Positions 56,801 through 61,509 of a stretch of DNA of 64,000 nt are shown one piece after another. The notes under the pieces are model-generated. The model worked only from the letters and a program-made list of their open reading frames with translations, made no database searches and was not told where the DNA came from. The stretch is from positions 124,001-188,000 of the forward strand of contig JAHBXD010000005.1 in NCBI GenBank assembly GCA_019636695.1. The letters run 5' to 3'. Within the stretch, counting starts at the first letter, position 1, and each line of letters opens with the position of its first letter. A program made the translations under genes and the position numbers. Source of the stretch: Phycisphaeraceae bacterium. GTDB lineage: Bacteria > Planctomycetota > Phycisphaerae > Phycisphaerales > UBA1924.

Positions 56801-56834
56801 GGTTGATCCTCCTTCGGGGAAAGCGCAGTGTAGC

Positions 56835-57794
56835 GTGGGCTCGCTCCCTTCCATATCCCGAAACACAACGCGGCTTGCGCCATCGCCTACTGGAGCGTTA
56901 CATCTGGGGAATGCCCGAACTTTTTTAGTGAACTGGGCGATTGCCCGACAGCGTGGTTGGCGGATCGTGCTTCGGATCGAGGATCTGGACACGCCGCGAG
57001 TGAAGCCGGGCGCGATTGATGAGACGATCTCGACCTTGCGGGCGCTGGGCATAGATTGGGACGAAGGCCCGCTGGTGCAATCGACGGATCTGCGGCCGTA
57101 TCGAGAGGCCATGCGCGTGCTCGCCGCACGCGGCGATGTGCATCGCTGCGCGCTGACGCGGGGTGAGATTGCGTCAGCGGCAAGCGCCCCCCAGGAGGGC
57201 GACCACGAATCGCGGTATGACCCTTCGCTGCGGCCGACGGATGCCGGGAAACCCGTGGTTTTTGCGGATGAGGCAACGAACTGGCGGTTTCTGACATCGC
57301 CGGGCATGGTGGAGTTCACCGACGGCTTTGCGGGACCGCAGCGCATCGAGGTTTCGGGTCGCCTCGGCGATTTTGTAGTGTGGACGAAACGCGGGCAGCC
57401 TGCGTATCAACTTGCCGTGGTGGTTGATGATGCTCGTCAGGGCATCACCCAGATCGTGCGCGGGAACGACCTGCTGGACTCAGCCGCGAGGCAACTGCTG
57501 CTGTATCGATCGCTCGGATGGGAGCCTGAGCCGGCATATACGCACCTGCCTCTGGTGCGCGGAGAGGACGGACGAAGGCTTGCCAAGCGTCATGGTGACA
57601 CGCGCGTGACGGAATATCTGCGTCGAGGGGTCGCGGTGGAGCGGATGATTGCGTTGATCGGCCGCTGGTGCGGGATGGAACCGGAAGAGCATTTATCGGC
57701 GAGCGCGTTCGCCTCGCGGCTTGACCTTCGTAGGATTCCACAGCACGACATCATTTTCACGTCGGAGGATGACCGTTGGCTTTGCACATTGTGA
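56835..57794 (+). CDS. gluQ: Glutamyl-Q tRNA(Asp) synthetase
   Basis: The protein has 319 residues if it starts at the GTG at 56835; an ATG at 56799 overlaps the phhB start. LAPSPTGALHLGN is the HIGH motif and LAKRHGDT replaces KMSKS. The C-terminal anticodon-binding domain of GluRS is absent, as in GluQ, which charges glutamate onto the queuosine base of tRNA(Asp). Cysteines for a zinc site seen in some homologues are not evident: only one Cys lies after VHR. The next gene starts inside its last codons. Confidence 0.88.
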   Translation: MGSLPSISRNTTRLAPSPTGALHLGNARTFLVNWAIARQRGWRIVLRIEDLDTPRVKPGAIDETISTLRALGIDWDEGPLVQSTDLRPYREAMRVLAARGDVHRCALTRGEIASAASAPQEGDHESRYDPSLRPTDAGKPVVFADEATNWRFLTSPGMVEFTDGFAGPQRIEVSGRLGDFVVWTKRGQPAYQLAVVVDDARQGITQIVRGNDLLDSAARQLLLYRSLGWEPEPAYTHLPLVRGEDGRRLAKRHGDTRVTEYLRRGVAVERMIALIGRWCGMEPEEHLSASAFASRLDLRRIPQHDIIFTSEDDRWLCTL

Positions 57795-58324
57795 CGATGG
57801 CCTCGGCCCTGATGCTCGGCGCGATTACCCCCGTGGCGATCGTGGGGTGCGCACCGGCAAGCTCCGCACCAGTCGCCGACGGCCGCGAGCGGGTCACCCT
57901 GGGCGGGAAGACCTTTCTTCTTGAGCTGGCGGCTGACGATGCCACTCGGGTGCGCGGCTTGAGCGGCCGGGATGAGATCGCGGCAGATGGGGGAATGCTG
58001 TTTGTATTTCCGAGGTCGCAACGGCTCGAGTTCGTGATGCGTGACTGCCTTGTGGATATCGACATCATCTTTGTTGACGGGACGGGGCGCATCACGGCGA
58101 TGCATGAAATGAAGGTCGAGCCGCCGCGGCGGGAGGACGAACCCAAGACGGATGACCCGCGATTGGATCGATATGAGGCGAGGCTGCCGCGGTATTCGAG
58201 CCGCTATGACGCCCAGTTTGCGATCGAACTGCGAGGCGGGACGATTGCGACGCTTTCTCCGCGCCCGGAAGCGGGCGAACGGGTGAATTTGGATGTGGTT
58301 CGTCTGAAGCGCCTTGCCCGGTGA
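57776..58324 (+). CDS. DUF192-family lipoprotein
   Basis: The protein has 182 residues from a TTG at 57776, chosen because GGAGG lies 7 bases before it and because it gives a complete lipoprotein signal with IVGC (Cys25). It overlaps the end of gluQ by 19 bases. The DUF192 core shows in FLLELAADDATRVRGLSGRD, MLFVFPRSQRLEFVMRD and VDIDIIFVDGTGRI. Function unknown; members are often secreted. Confidence 0.82.
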   Translation: MALHIVTMASALMLGAITPVAIVGCAPASSAPVADGRERVTLGGKTFLLELAADDATRVRGLSGRDEIAADGGMLFVFPRSQRLEFVMRDCLVDIDIIFVDGTGRITAMHEMKVEPPRREDEPKTDDPRLDRYEARLPRYSSRYDAQFAIELRGGTIATLSPRPEAGERVNLDVVRLKRLAR

Positions 58325-58376
58325 AAGCCCGGGGGCGATCCTGGGTCAGGTTCGGGTGGGGTGGCCTAGGCACGGG

Positions 58377-58570
58377 GCGGGCCATAGACTTTGCGTCCCC
58401 GGTGGAAACCGGGTTTCGCGGAACCGAACACGACGAGGCCGAGAGGCTGAGGCGTGTGCAGAGGCCCCCCCGAATCGCGGACACGGGGGTCTGAGTTCCA
58501 AGGTCGCTTCCTGAGAGGGTGCGACCGAGTGTGCCGCGGTCTCCGACTCCCCGGGGTGTCTCCCGGAGTG
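58377..58570 (+). ncRNA. Candidate structured noncoding RNA with several GNRA hairpins
   Basis: In the 339-base gap before tRNA-Gln I find consecutive stems. CCCGGT/ACCGGG with a GGAA loop lies at 58398-58413. ACACG/CGTGT encloses GGCC/GGCT with a GAGA loop at 58428-58457. CAGA plus a C run pairs with a G run plus TCTG at 58459-58493. GGTCGC/GCGACC with CCT/GGG and a GAGA loop lies at 58502-58526. ACTCC/GGAGT lies at 58546-58569. GNRA loops are present only when read on the plus strand. It is not RNase P, tmRNA, SRP or 6S by the conserved motifs I know. The identity is unknown. Confidence 0.4.
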
Positions 58571-58663
58571 CGGGCCGCGCTGGTGGACCCGTACGAGCGC
58601 CGGCCATGCCGAGCGTGATCAGAAAGGGAGTTGTTTGAGACGTTTCGGGTTTGATACCCGTAT

Positions 58664-58734
58664 TGCCCGGTAGTGTAACGGCAGCACATCAGATTTTGGT
58701 TCTGACTGTCCAGGTTCGAATCCTGGCCGGGCAG
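58664..58734 (+). tRNA. tRNA-Gln (TTG anticodon)
   Basis: Acceptor TGCCCGG pairs with CCGGGCA, discriminator G. The anticodon loop TTTTGGT gives TTG. The T arm is CCAGGTTCGAATCCTGG. A TTGTTT/GATACC pair 16 bases apart at 58631-58658 could be its promoter. No CCA is encoded. Confidence 0.95.
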
Positions 58735-58748
58735 TTGTATCGGTCGAG

Positions 58749-58771
58749 TTCGCGCGAGCGGGATGCGCGAA
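58749..58771 (+). terminator. Hairpin after tRNA-Gln
   Basis: TTCGCGC at 58749-58755 pairs with GCGCGAA at 58765-58771, followed by TTGCATT. The T run is weak, so this is a possible terminator only. Confidence 0.45.
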
Positions 58772-58967
58772 TTGCATTGGCAAGTGGTTGAGGCATCGAT
58801 ATCGAGATGGCGCGGCGGTCAGCGGCGATCCGCCCATGGGAGTGGACGAGGAGGGAGAGGCGTGACGGCCCCGGGTTACGGCAGGTTGATGTGAAAGAGC
58901 GCCTGCACCGCCCCGCTCAGGCTGCACGCGAAACCGTGATGACTCTTGGTTCTTGTGAGGAGACCAC

Positions 58968-59762
58968 GTGACGACAGCGACGCGATCAGATGCCCCCGCG
59001 GCGATCATTCTCGCGGCGGGGAAAGGAACGCGGATGAAGAGCGACCTTCCGAAGGTCTGCCATCCGATCGGCGGCCGCGCGATGGTGTGCGCGGTCGTGG
59101 ATGCCTGCCGCGAGGCCGGTTGCGGGAAGATCGTGGTTGTTGTGGGGTATAAGCAGGAACTGGTTCGTGAGGCGCTGGCGGGGTATTCTGGCTTAGCGTT
59201 CGCGCTGCAGGAAGAACAGTTGGGCACTGGGCATGCGGTGCTGTGTGCCCAGGGGTTCTTCGAGGGGGTAGGTCAGGGAGGCTCGGGCGGAACGGGGGAG
59301 GCACGGGAAGTTTTTGTGCTGTGCGGAGATGGGCCGCTGATTCGGGCTTCGACGCTTCGAAAGGTACTGGATCGCCATCGAGCGACCGGCGCATCGGCGA
59401 CCCTGGCGACGAGTGTGATCGCCGATCCGACGGGGTATGGTCGCGTGGTGCGTGACGAGACGGGGAAGTTCGTGGGCATCGTAGAGCAGAAGAACGCGAC
59501 ACCCGCGCAGTTGCTGATTCGCGAGGTAAACCCGAGTTACTACTGCTTTGAGCCAGGGGCGCTTTTCTCCGCTCTTTCGCGGGTAGAGCGAAACCAGGCG
59601 ACGGGCGAGTATTACGTCACGGATGTGCCGACATTGCTGATGGCCGATGGCCGACGGGTCGAGGTGATTGATGCGGTGCCCCCGGAAGATGTGCTGAGCA
59701 TCAACACGCTCGAACACCTTGCTGAAGTTGACCGGATCTATCGCTCACGAGGAGGGGCATGA
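58968..59762 (+). CDS. GlmU-like nucleotidyltransferase lacking the acetyltransferase domain
   Basis: The protein has 264 residues from a GTG at 58968 with GAGGAG upstream. ILAAGKGTRMKSDLPKVCHP is the nucleotidyltransferase signature of GlmU; QLGTGHAV, LCGDGPLIR and EYYVTDV also fit. Full GlmU has ~450 residues with a left-handed beta-helix that acetylates glucosamine-1-phosphate; here the chain stops after the first domain. It should make UDP-GlcNAc from UTP and GlcNAc-1-P. It overlaps prs by 4 bases (ATGA), as in the classical glmU-prs cluster. Confidence 0.88.
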   Translation: MTTATRSDAPAAIILAAGKGTRMKSDLPKVCHPIGGRAMVCAVVDACREAGCGKIVVVVGYKQELVREALAGYSGLAFALQEEQLGTGHAVLCAQGFFEGVGQGGSGGTGEAREVFVLCGDGPLIRASTLRKVLDRHRATGASATLATSVIADPTGYGRVVRDETGKFVGIVEQKNATPAQLLIREVNPSYYCFEPGALFSALSRVERNQATGEYYVTDVPTLLMADGRRVEVIDAVPPEDVLSINTLEHLAEVDRIYRSRGGA

Positions 59763-60775
59763 GCATGGGAACCACGCAGCGAACGCGCGCTGAGGCCGGT
59801 CGTGACAACGATCAGATGAAGATTTTCGCAGGGCGGCACACCAAGGCGCTGGCGAGGAGAATCTGCGAGCACCTCGGGATGGCGCTCGGGGATGCCAAGA
59901 CGTTCGAGTTTCCTGACGGCGAACTGCTGGTCAAGCTGGACGAGGACGTTCGCGGGCGCGATTGCTATGTCGTGCTTTCCACGTGCGAGCCGGTGAATGA
60001 CAACGTGATGGAGCTTCTGATCTTCATCGATTGTCTGCGTCGGGCGAGCGCGCAGCGTGTGTGCGCTGTGCTGCCGTATTTCGGATACGGCAGACAGGAT
60101 CGCAAGGATGAGGGTCGAGTGCCGATTACGGCGAAACTGGTGGCGAACCTGATTACCGGTGCTCGGGCAGACCGTGTGCTGGCGATTGACCTGCACGCAG
60201 CGCAGATTCAGGGGTTTTTCGACCTGCCGATGGACCACCTGACGGCAGCGCCGGTGTTCCTGGATTACTTCCGTTCGATTCGTGAGGAACTCGGCGACCT
60301 GTGCCTTGTCAGCCCGGACGTAGGCAACATGAAGGTCGCGGAGAAGGTGGCGAACCTGCTCGGTGGAGACCTGGCGATCATTCACAAGCAGCGGCTGAGC
60401 GGCTCGCACGTGGTCAGCAGCAACCTGATCGGCAACGTGGACGGCAAGACGGTGCTGATGTTCGACGACATGATTTCGACGGCAGGGACGGTGTGCGAAG
60501 CCGCACGTCTGGTCAAGCAGCGCGGGGCGAAACGGGTGATCGCGGCGGCGACGCACGCGGTGCTTGTGGGGCCTGCGCTCGAGCGGCTGACGGCGGCGCC
60601 GATCGATCGGATCGTTGTGACGGACACGATTCCGATCGACGGGCGGTGCGACGTGATTCGAGATCGGGTCACGGTACTGAGCGTCGGGCCGCTGCTGGGC
60701 GATGCAATTCACAACATTCATCACAATCTCTCGGTCAGTGCGTTGTTCAGGGACAAGGTGGGTCCGAAGCGCTGA
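59759..60775 (+). CDS. prs: Ribose-phosphate pyrophosphokinase
   Basis: The protein has 338 residues. It makes PRPP for purines, pyrimidines, His and Trp. Motifs are EFPDGELLVKLDE, PYFGYGRQDRK, IDLHAAQIQGFF and the PRPP loop LMFDDMISTAGT. The ATG at 59759 overlaps the previous stop; an ATG at 59765 is possible and the ~20-residue N-terminal extension is longer than usual. The ribosome site GGAGG lies inside the upstream gene. Confidence 0.94.
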   Translation: MSMGTTQRTRAEAGRDNDQMKIFAGRHTKALARRICEHLGMALGDAKTFEFPDGELLVKLDEDVRGRDCYVVLSTCEPVNDNVMELLIFIDCLRRASAQRVCAVLPYFGYGRQDRKDEGRVPITAKLVANLITGARADRVLAIDLHAAQIQGFFDLPMDHLTAAPVFLDYFRSIREELGDLCLVSPDVGNMKVAEKVANLLGGDLAIIHKQRLSGSHVVSSNLIGNVDGKTVLMFDDMISTAGTVCEAARLVKQRGAKRVIAAATHAVLVGPALERLTAAPIDRIVVTDTIPIDGRCDVIRDRVTVLSVGPLLGDAIHNIHHNLSVSALFRDKVGPKR

Positions 60776-60816: not shown

Positions 60817-61509
60817 ATGCACGAAGATGCACCGATTCTGACTGCGAATTCGAGAGCGCGCATCGGCAGCCGGTATGCCCGGCGCGAGCGCGAGGCGGGC
60901 GGTCTGCCGGCCGTGGTCTACGGCCACAAGACCGAGCCGGTGGCGGTTTCGTTCGACGGCCGCGAGACGGTCAAGCACATCAACAAGGGTGAGCGGGTTT
61001 TCCGGATGGCGCTTGACGGCGGGCAGCCGGAATACATCCTGCTCAAGGATCTGCAGTTCGATCACCTCGGCACGCGCCCGGTGCATGCGGACTTCATGCG
61101 CGTGGACCTGAACGAGAAGGTGCGCGTGAAAGTTCCGGTGCACCTGATCGGCGAAGCCCGCGGGCTGAGCACGGCGGGAGCGGTGATGATCCGCCCGATG
61201 ACGGAGCTTGAAATCGAGTGCACACTTGCGACGCTTCCGGAATATGTGGAAGTGATCGTGACCGAGATGCAGGCGGGTGACTCGATCATGGCTTCGCAGG
61301 TGTCGATGCCTGATGCGGGGATTCGCCTGATGAGCCCACCCGATGCCGTGGTGGCGCACATCGTGGTGCAGTCGGAAGAGAAGACGGGCGAGGCGGTCGC
61401 TGCCGACGGCACGGCTGCGCCGGCGCAACCGACCGTCATCGCCGAGAAGAAGGCCGAGGAGCGTGCGGCGGCCAAGGCCGATCCGAAGGCCGGGGACAAG
61501 AAGAAGTGA
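60817..61509 (+). CDS. rplY: 50S ribosomal protein L25 (Ctc type)
   Basis: The protein has 230 residues, the long two-domain form. The L25 domain (RARIGSRYARREREAGGLPAVVYG, in part; DLQFDHLGTRPVHADFMRV in part) binds 5S rRNA. The TL5-like C-terminal domain follows, with a Lys/Ala-rich tail from ~205. It lies in the conserved prs-rplY-pth order. Confidence 0.93.
   Translation: MHEDAPILTANSRARIGSRYARREREAGGLPAVVYGHKTEPVAVSFDGRETVKHINKGERVFRMALDGGQPEYILLKDLQFDHLGTRPVHADFMRVDLNEKVRVKVPVHLIGEARGLSTAGAVMIRPMTELEIECTLATLPEYVEVIVTEMQAGDSIMASQVSMPDAGIRLMSPPDAVVAHIVVQSEEKTGEAVAADGTAAPAQPTVIAEKKAEERAAAKADPKAGDKKK

Follow-up and report, generated by a model that had tools for sequence, protein, structure and literature searches.

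A conserved structured RNA with a fixed place before the tRNA-Gln(UUG) gene in one order of Planctomycetota

The window analyzed here, a stretch of 64,000 nucleotides from a Phycisphaeraceae bacterium, contains a gap (58325–58662) between the end of a DUF192 gene (58324) and the start of a tRNA-Gln(ttg) gene (58663) that had been proposed, from the letters alone, to encode a new structured RNA. This raises the question of whether such an RNA exists, how much of the gap it occupies, and what it might do beside a tRNA gene. As originally supposed, the gap holds no recognizable gene: none of the eight ORFs (≥40 aa) listed over it has a Pfam match at cut-off, the best sub-threshold match among them being a single one with an E value of 0.057, and a protein-coding reading was rejected on this ground. 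The plus strand also folds into the many stems that had been described, with a calculated energy of −169.6 kcal/mol (z −2.51, 1 of 100 shuffles equally low), compared to a z of −0.77 for the minus strand (23 of 100 shuffles as low).

The proposal had rested in part on three GNRA loops (GGAA, GAGA and GAGA) in one orientation. Two of these are present on stems of 4 bp or longer, at 58404 (GGAA) and 58441 (GAGA). However, direct reading places the second GAGA (58513–58516) on a 3-bp stem, and the third loop on a longer stem is instead a GCGA at 58335; the plus-strand count rises to four once 3-bp stems are included, and the minus strand of the gap has no GNRA loop on a stem of 4 bp or more. Only 1.05% of dinucleotide shuffles, and 0.9% of 1114 stretches taken elsewhere in the window, have three or more such loops, so the number in the gap is indeed above chance, as had been claimed.

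The GCGA loop caps a strong hairpin with an 8-bp stem (58327–58346) that carries no U-run and lies between the DUF192 stop codon and the promoter described below. Possibly, this hairpin forms the end of the upstream DUF192 transcript. Just upstream of DUF192 and tRNA-Gln, positions 56805–57791 encode a short class I Glu/Gln tRNA-synthetase catalytic domain (tRNA-synt_1c), and the gene appears gluQ-like, judging from its size and context.

Related sequences were sought in other genomes, and below we use G for genomes (G000 being that of the window), L for loci (L001 being the window) and C for contigs. A DNA search with the gap and the tRNA returned matches in 29 of 41 genomes, nearly all in or at the tRNA; the exceptions were two short matches in G018 and G009 (query positions 269–325) away from the tRNA locus. 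Local blastn of the gap produced, besides the gap itself, only five matches of 17–29 bases (E 0.30). Despite this result, side-by-side reading of 26 loci, each over the 350 bases preceding tRNA-Gln, revealed a recurring pattern. It begins with a promoter-like TTGAC..TAnnnT, continues with GGAGCCG..CGnGACGGA, a hairpin and GAGGCGCG, and then shows a second hairpin with a CGCGGC loop, the sequence GCUCC and, farther on, GCCGCGG and ACCGCG.

To permit a fair test, the window copy was withheld from the alignment (A2) used to evaluate this pattern. Standard MAFFT was applied, on sequence alone, to 12 of the 20 domains that had been cut, leaving out the divergent or long-armed L002, L004, L006, L010, L015, L017 and L024; L007, L011 and L025 were located but uncut, and no motif was seen by eye in L013, L014 and L019. 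In the 12 relatives, 90.6% of the paired cells are standard pairs and 16 of the 28 pairs exhibit compensatory changes; none of the five measures was equaled in any of 500 shuffles. When the partner strand is slid by one to three columns, pairing drops to 39.8–47.4%. This control somewhat favors the structure, since the sequences from which it was proposed, with ends chosen by eye, are also those being tested.

A covariance model built from these 12 sequences (R1), whose E-values are rough, finds the withheld window copy at 58420–58499 with 38.2 bits (E 2.5e-6 over the window, 1.2e-4 over the genome), and the next-best match in the window has an E value of 0.33. When 81 sequences were aligned to the model, 93.9% of cells paired, 25 of 28 pairs covaried, 404 cells carried double changes (107 in shuffles), and the score was 0.535 versus at most 0.118 for slid structures, values that lean towards the structure by construction because the alignment was made to the model. 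Thinning to 26 sequences with less than 70% identity left compensatory changes in 10 of the 12 P1 and P2 pairs. The mean pairwise identity is 0.63. The 81 loci, and 20 more used below, were picked for having a match, and a few genomes appear among them under two identifiers, such that tallies like 81/81 or those out of 101 are not frequencies.

Comparing orthologous gaps was the test set in advance, and it yielded conserved structure with compensatory changes, a fixed place before tRNA-Gln and a promoter-like site. Compensatory changes exceed those in the controls, which is the general hallmark of a conserved structured noncoding RNA. We consider it virtually certain that the folded RNA in the gap is real. 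The original prediction of a new structured RNA upstream of tRNA-Gln was therefore borne out, albeit mainly on grounds other than its GNRA loops, and the RNA it placed in the gap has a conserved part spanning approximately 58420–58580 rather than the whole intergenic stretch. The features of the locus are as follows.

58362–58390, plus strand: predicted sigma70-like promoter, with a weak −35 (TGGCCT, 58362–58367), 17 nt, and a −10 (TAGACT, 58385–58390).
58398–58413, plus strand: hairpin with a GGAA tetraloop (58404) and 6-bp stem, in the interval from the −10 box to P1.
58420–58499, plus strand: core domain, a three-way junction of P1, P2 and P3 (R1 match and covariation).
58420–58424, plus strand: 5′ strand of P1, whose partner is 58495–58499 (5 of 5 pairs standard in the window copy).
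58426–58459, plus strand: P2 arm (58426–58432 pairs with 58453–58459).
58462–58492, plus strand: P3 arm, helices 4 and 5, with the conserved loop CGCGG at 58476–58480.
58502–58526, plus strand: P4, a variable hairpin GGUCGC/GCGACC (direct reading and MFE fold).
58533–58538, plus strand: GCCGCG element, putative pseudoknot partner of the P3 loop (58534–58538 with 58476–58480).
58570–58592, plus strand: 3′ element with CCGCG (58575–58579) and a possible hairpin P6, a helix with weak support.
58663–58735, plus strand: tRNA-Gln, anticodon TTG, the downstream partner (tRNA gene call).
58968–59762, plus strand: glmU-like nucleotidyltransferase gene (Pfam).
59759–60775, plus strand: prs (Pfam).
60817–61509, plus strand: rplY/L25 (Pfam).

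Sequence comparison thus supports a three-way junction (P1, P2 and P3) together with a pseudoknot between the P3 loop and the downstream GCCGCG. Several bases of the junction and internal loops are nearly invariant across copies. Within the P2 arm, the internal loop ACG/GAGG is well conserved and the hairpin P2b, capped in the window by the GAGA loop, is variable; in the 81-sequence alignment, helices 2 and 3 of this arm have 98.2% and 89.6% of cells paired and compensatory changes in six of seven and four of four pairs, respectively. In some relatives the linker is too short to accommodate P4. The window copy is itself divergent, with one broken P2 pair (A–G), one broken pseudoknot pair and the weak −35. 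Its genus mate, G001, scores 26.4 bits (E 0.0016) in a local search and was missed by both the R1 scan of the order and the R2 scan of the class.

This anatomy also settles the standing of the GNRA loops, which are incidental to the conserved RNA. The GCGA hairpin lies upstream of the promoter, and the GGAA hairpin falls in the interval separating the −10 box from P1, which measures 35 nt in the window and mostly 14–28 nt in relatives. A GNRA hairpin occurs in arm P2b in only 14 of the 81 sequences, the window included, and GNRA loops were accordingly rejected as a signature of the RNA.

The pseudoknot has its own comparative evidence. Among 97 distinct sequences, the P3 loop CGCGGC and the downstream GCCGCG pair in 558 of 582 cells, a number reached by none of 2000 shuffles (mean 554.2). 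Compensatory changes are found in four cells, namely in L078 (C–G to U–A) and in L085, L091 and L176 (G–C to A–U), and again none of 2000 shuffles produces as many. Because the last three may share one event, we regard this support as genuine yet modest. In 18 of the 97 sequences, one or more cells are unpaired: 11 lose one end pair, the window loses the other end pair (the sixth), an internal pair is lost in L057 and L064, four of six pairs remain in L098 and L151, and three of six remain in L006 and L007.

Elements farther downstream are less well defined. The sequence CCGCG lies more than 15 nt behind a GC[CT]GCGG element in 85 of 100 linkers, a count made without a control in GC-rich sequence. 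We do not claim helix P6, which pairs in 40 of 58 cases compared to a permuted mean of 33 and maximum of 40, nor a helix P0 outside P1 (64 of 100 versus a permuted mean of 45 and maximum of 59; 29 of 34 versus 23 and 29 in a subset chosen by eye). Of 100 linkers, 51 (e.g., L005, L018 and L023; no control) contain a purine-rich AGGAG or GGAGG in the final 110 nt ahead of the tRNA, and no start codon consistently following this motif was seen by eye.

The covariance-model search called for by the original prediction reveals that the RNA is widespread in one order of Planctomycetota, which is Phycisphaerales according to named relatives. Of 400 genomes from the order, 153 match R1 at E ≤ 0.001 (101 of 262 among the better genomes), and each of the 153 has a single match. 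The remaining 247 genomes give no R1 match, partly owing to strict filters. Of 397 genomes from the class, which include an unstated number from the order, R2 identifies the RNA in 57, every one of them a member of this order. Of 392 from the phylum it identifies the RNA in 15, comprising 14 in the order and one weak match elsewhere. This last match (G1025:C59:553816–553897, 35 bits, E 0.0036) is near chance for 392 genomes.

These counts are lower bounds. Local searches recovered copies missed by the R2 scan of the class (L182, L183, L186, L188 and L011) and named loci that R1 ranked low or missed (L102–L107). The same kind of search found no RNA in L013, L019, L115, L185, L187 and L189, the fetched stretch of L185 holding no tRNA-Gln; it gave only chance-level matches in L014, L110 and L184, and E 0.03 in L025. 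By eye, the stretches after the promoter in L184 and L187 resemble a strongly diverged P2 arm, but the model does not call them (E 0.43 and no match, respectively). Among named loci around relatives of glmU, 28 of 80 match R1 at E ≤ 0.0024. Most of the matching loci are titled Phycisphaerales, Phycisphaeraceae, Phycisphaerae or Planctomycetota, and a few carry other labels.

In 100 of 101 inspected copies the RNA is followed by tRNA-Gln(UUG), the tallies by set being 44/44, 80/81 and 20/20 loci (the first two sets overlap), and the exception, L097, has a tRNA-Gln sequence broken by a masked run of N. The linker from RNA to tRNA ranges from 69 to 416 nt. An early survey had noted glmU beside tRNA-Gln in 25 of 30 loci, and it is downstream in 98 of the 101. 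There is no room for it in L027, and in L066 and L071, where ORFs were judged by reading, glmU is absent between tRNA-Gln and prs while the RNA, tRNA-Gln and the order prs-rplY-pth are kept. In the window, pth-, rpsF- and ssb-like ORFs, likewise judged by reading, lie downstream of rplY.

On its other side, the RNA adjoins a promoter-like sequence. We scored, out of 12, a −35/−10 pair with 16–18 nt spacing just upstream of P1. A score of at least 8 was obtained for 73 of 101 copies, compared to 1, 0, 0 and 1 in four controls (of 101, 101, 100 and 100), and shuffles gave 3.05 on average; the window, with its weak −35, scores 7. Among the 81 copies where the distance from −10 to P1 was measured, 75 have a promoter-like site. 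U-runs are present in just six of 100 linkers, and therefore the transcript probably continues into the tRNA.

Given these characteristics, we favor, with modest confidence, the interpretation that the locus produces a stand-alone RNA from its own promoter as one precursor with tRNA-Gln, from which it would be released by RNase P to act in trans. Specifically, a single-copy structured RNA of roughly 150–300 nt would be transcribed from its own sigma70-type promoter, and polymerase would read on into tRNA-Gln(UUG) to yield a single precursor. RNase P cleavage at the 5′ end of the tRNA would then free the upstream RNA, whose 3′ end would need no terminator. The freed RNA is predicted to fold as a three-way junction locked by the pseudoknot between the P3 loop and the downstream GCCGCG. 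We infer its transcription, release and trans action from the arrangement of the locus; most likely the RNA would act alone, bound by protein or binding other RNA, and would be made in step with tRNA-Gln and glmU-prs-rplY-pth.

The covariation, the recovery of the window copy, the single match in each matching genome, the pseudoknot, the promoter-like site, the linkage to tRNA-Gln and the scarcity of U-runs all favor a stand-alone RNA, as do L066 and L071, which keep the RNA and tRNA-Gln without glmU. However, several observations argue against it. The length of the linker varies so widely that it defines no 3′ end for the RNA. No match was found in 247 of the 400 genomes of the order, and some loci (L013 and L019) have no detectable RNA. 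Moreover, the window copy is divergent, and the copy of its genus mate escaped the scans. The linkage to tRNA-Gln would also fit a role in cis, because a purely trans-acting RNA might be expected to move at least once, and none of the inspected copies is relocated.

Indeed, the main rival is that the RNA is a cis-acting leader, riboswitch-like or bound by protein, that sets transcription into tRNA-Gln and the operon downstream. We regard this as possible, though well short of probable. A leader is favored by the association with tRNA-Gln, which holds for every inspected copy, and with glmU, which holds for 98 of the 101 loci; the near invariance of several junction and internal-loop bases is aptamer-like. 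In addition, GCCGCGG could pair with either the P3 loop or the 3′ CCGCG, which might constitute a switch, although this was noted by reading and the element hardly varies. Candidate signals for such a leader are uncharged tRNA-Gln, glutamine or an amino-sugar. The narrower proposal, that the RNA senses glutamine or the charging of tRNA-Gln and thereby sets transcription of tRNA-Gln and of the translation and cell-wall genes behind it, we consider doubtful. With U-runs so rare there is no evident intrinsic terminator in the linkers for a leader to control, and since the RNA precedes a tRNA, there is no adjoining ribosome binding site to mask. The widely varying length of the linker also argues against regulation in cis.

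Alternatively, the fold might serve only the precursor, protecting its 5′ end and helping this one tRNA to be transcribed, stabilized or processed by RNase P, with no later function. In favor of this, the inspected copies always lie 5′ of the same tRNA and near a promoter. However, the conserved loops and the pseudoknot exceed the needs of protection, and in L013 and L019 a promoter-like site is seen by eye close to tRNA-Gln with no detectable RNA, such that tRNA-Gln can evidently do without it. We therefore consider a purely protective fold unlikely.

Two further explanations concern the identity of the RNA rather than its role. One is that a known housekeeping RNA (6S RNA, tmRNA, SRP RNA or RNase P RNA) is encoded here in divergent form, which would fit the single match per genome, typical of those RNAs, and the failure to find 6S RNA (RF00013) in G000. 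The sequence comparisons leave almost no room for this. A search of the whole window with Rfam 15 (4227 covariance models) at the gathering score gave tRNAs only; extended to E 5 over 58250–59000 it gave the tRNA and two chance-level matches outside the core, and to E 1 over 20 of 29 relative loci it gave rRNA, tRNA and one chance microRNA match outside the RNA. The earlier impression that no known RNA class fits is thus upheld for the window and for the 20 relative loci. Furthermore, G000 carries RNase P RNA (RF00010) at C2:562996–563448, SRP RNA (RF00169) at C2:67603–67701 and tmRNA (RF00023) at C1:41907–42257, with two weaker tmRNA matches below cut-off on C4 and C1, and the RNA described here is on C5. 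Matches to 6S RNA occur in 12 of 41 genomes, three of them over cut-off. Identity with 6S RNA is refuted by its co-occurrence with the present RNA on different contigs, firmly in G040 (6S over cut-off on C128, RNA on C93) and also in G010 and G018, where 6S matches below cut-off (34.5 bits) are on C70 and C22 and the RNA is on C65 and C7. The other explanation, chance stems in GC-rich DNA, could appeal to the GC-rich gap and a fold z of just −2.5, but it is made exceedingly improbable by covariation beyond shuffled and slid controls and by recovery of the window copy with a model built without it.

The present RNA shares with 6S RNA its single-copy occurrence in bacteria and a similar size. 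However, 6S RNA adopts the shape of one long bulged hairpin, in contrast to the branched three-way junction and pseudoknot predicted here. T-box and other riboswitch leaders are likewise structured RNAs near a promoter that precede translation genes and have conserved loops, and ACCGCG in the present RNA resembles part of the T-box motif. Unlike them, our RNA has no Rfam match, precedes a tRNA gene rather than the start of an mRNA, and is seldom followed by U-runs. Ribosomal protein leaders for S6/S18, L25 or S15 were also considered but dropped because the tRNA and other genes intervene. Small RNAs processed from tRNA-containing precursors form a general class in which, as proposed here, an RNA and a tRNA share one transcript and are parted by tRNA processing. 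The difference is that the upstream RNA in the present case folds elaborately and keeps this fold throughout an order, and a single literature search on this point brought up no specific described example.

The Rhodopirellula-1 motif is a candidate structured RNA listed for Proteobacteria and Planctomycetes, with no Rfam accession given in its table row (PMC2864571). By its listed range it would differ from the present RNA, which is found in one order, bar one weak match. The RNA is not described in the searched passages of PMC2864571, PMC11109978 and PMC8632094, and a literature search outside subscription papers and preprints did not find it described. We class the RNA as a new family of a known broad kind that is not in Rfam 15, with Rhodopirellula-1 compared by listed range only. 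Its unusual feature would be that it invariably forms the 5′ portion of a transcript containing a tRNA.

With this finding, an order for which we found no RNA survey in the literature gains a widespread structured RNA present in single copy. That families of very different sequence retain it between one promoter and one tRNA suggests an important role. The locus also offers a clean test case, either for structured RNAs that form the 5′ part of tRNA precursors or for a tRNA gene under a folded leader. If the RNA were indeed a sensor, it would represent a class of RNA that acts in cis on a tRNA gene, and the supply of a tRNA would be under the control of an RNA sensor.
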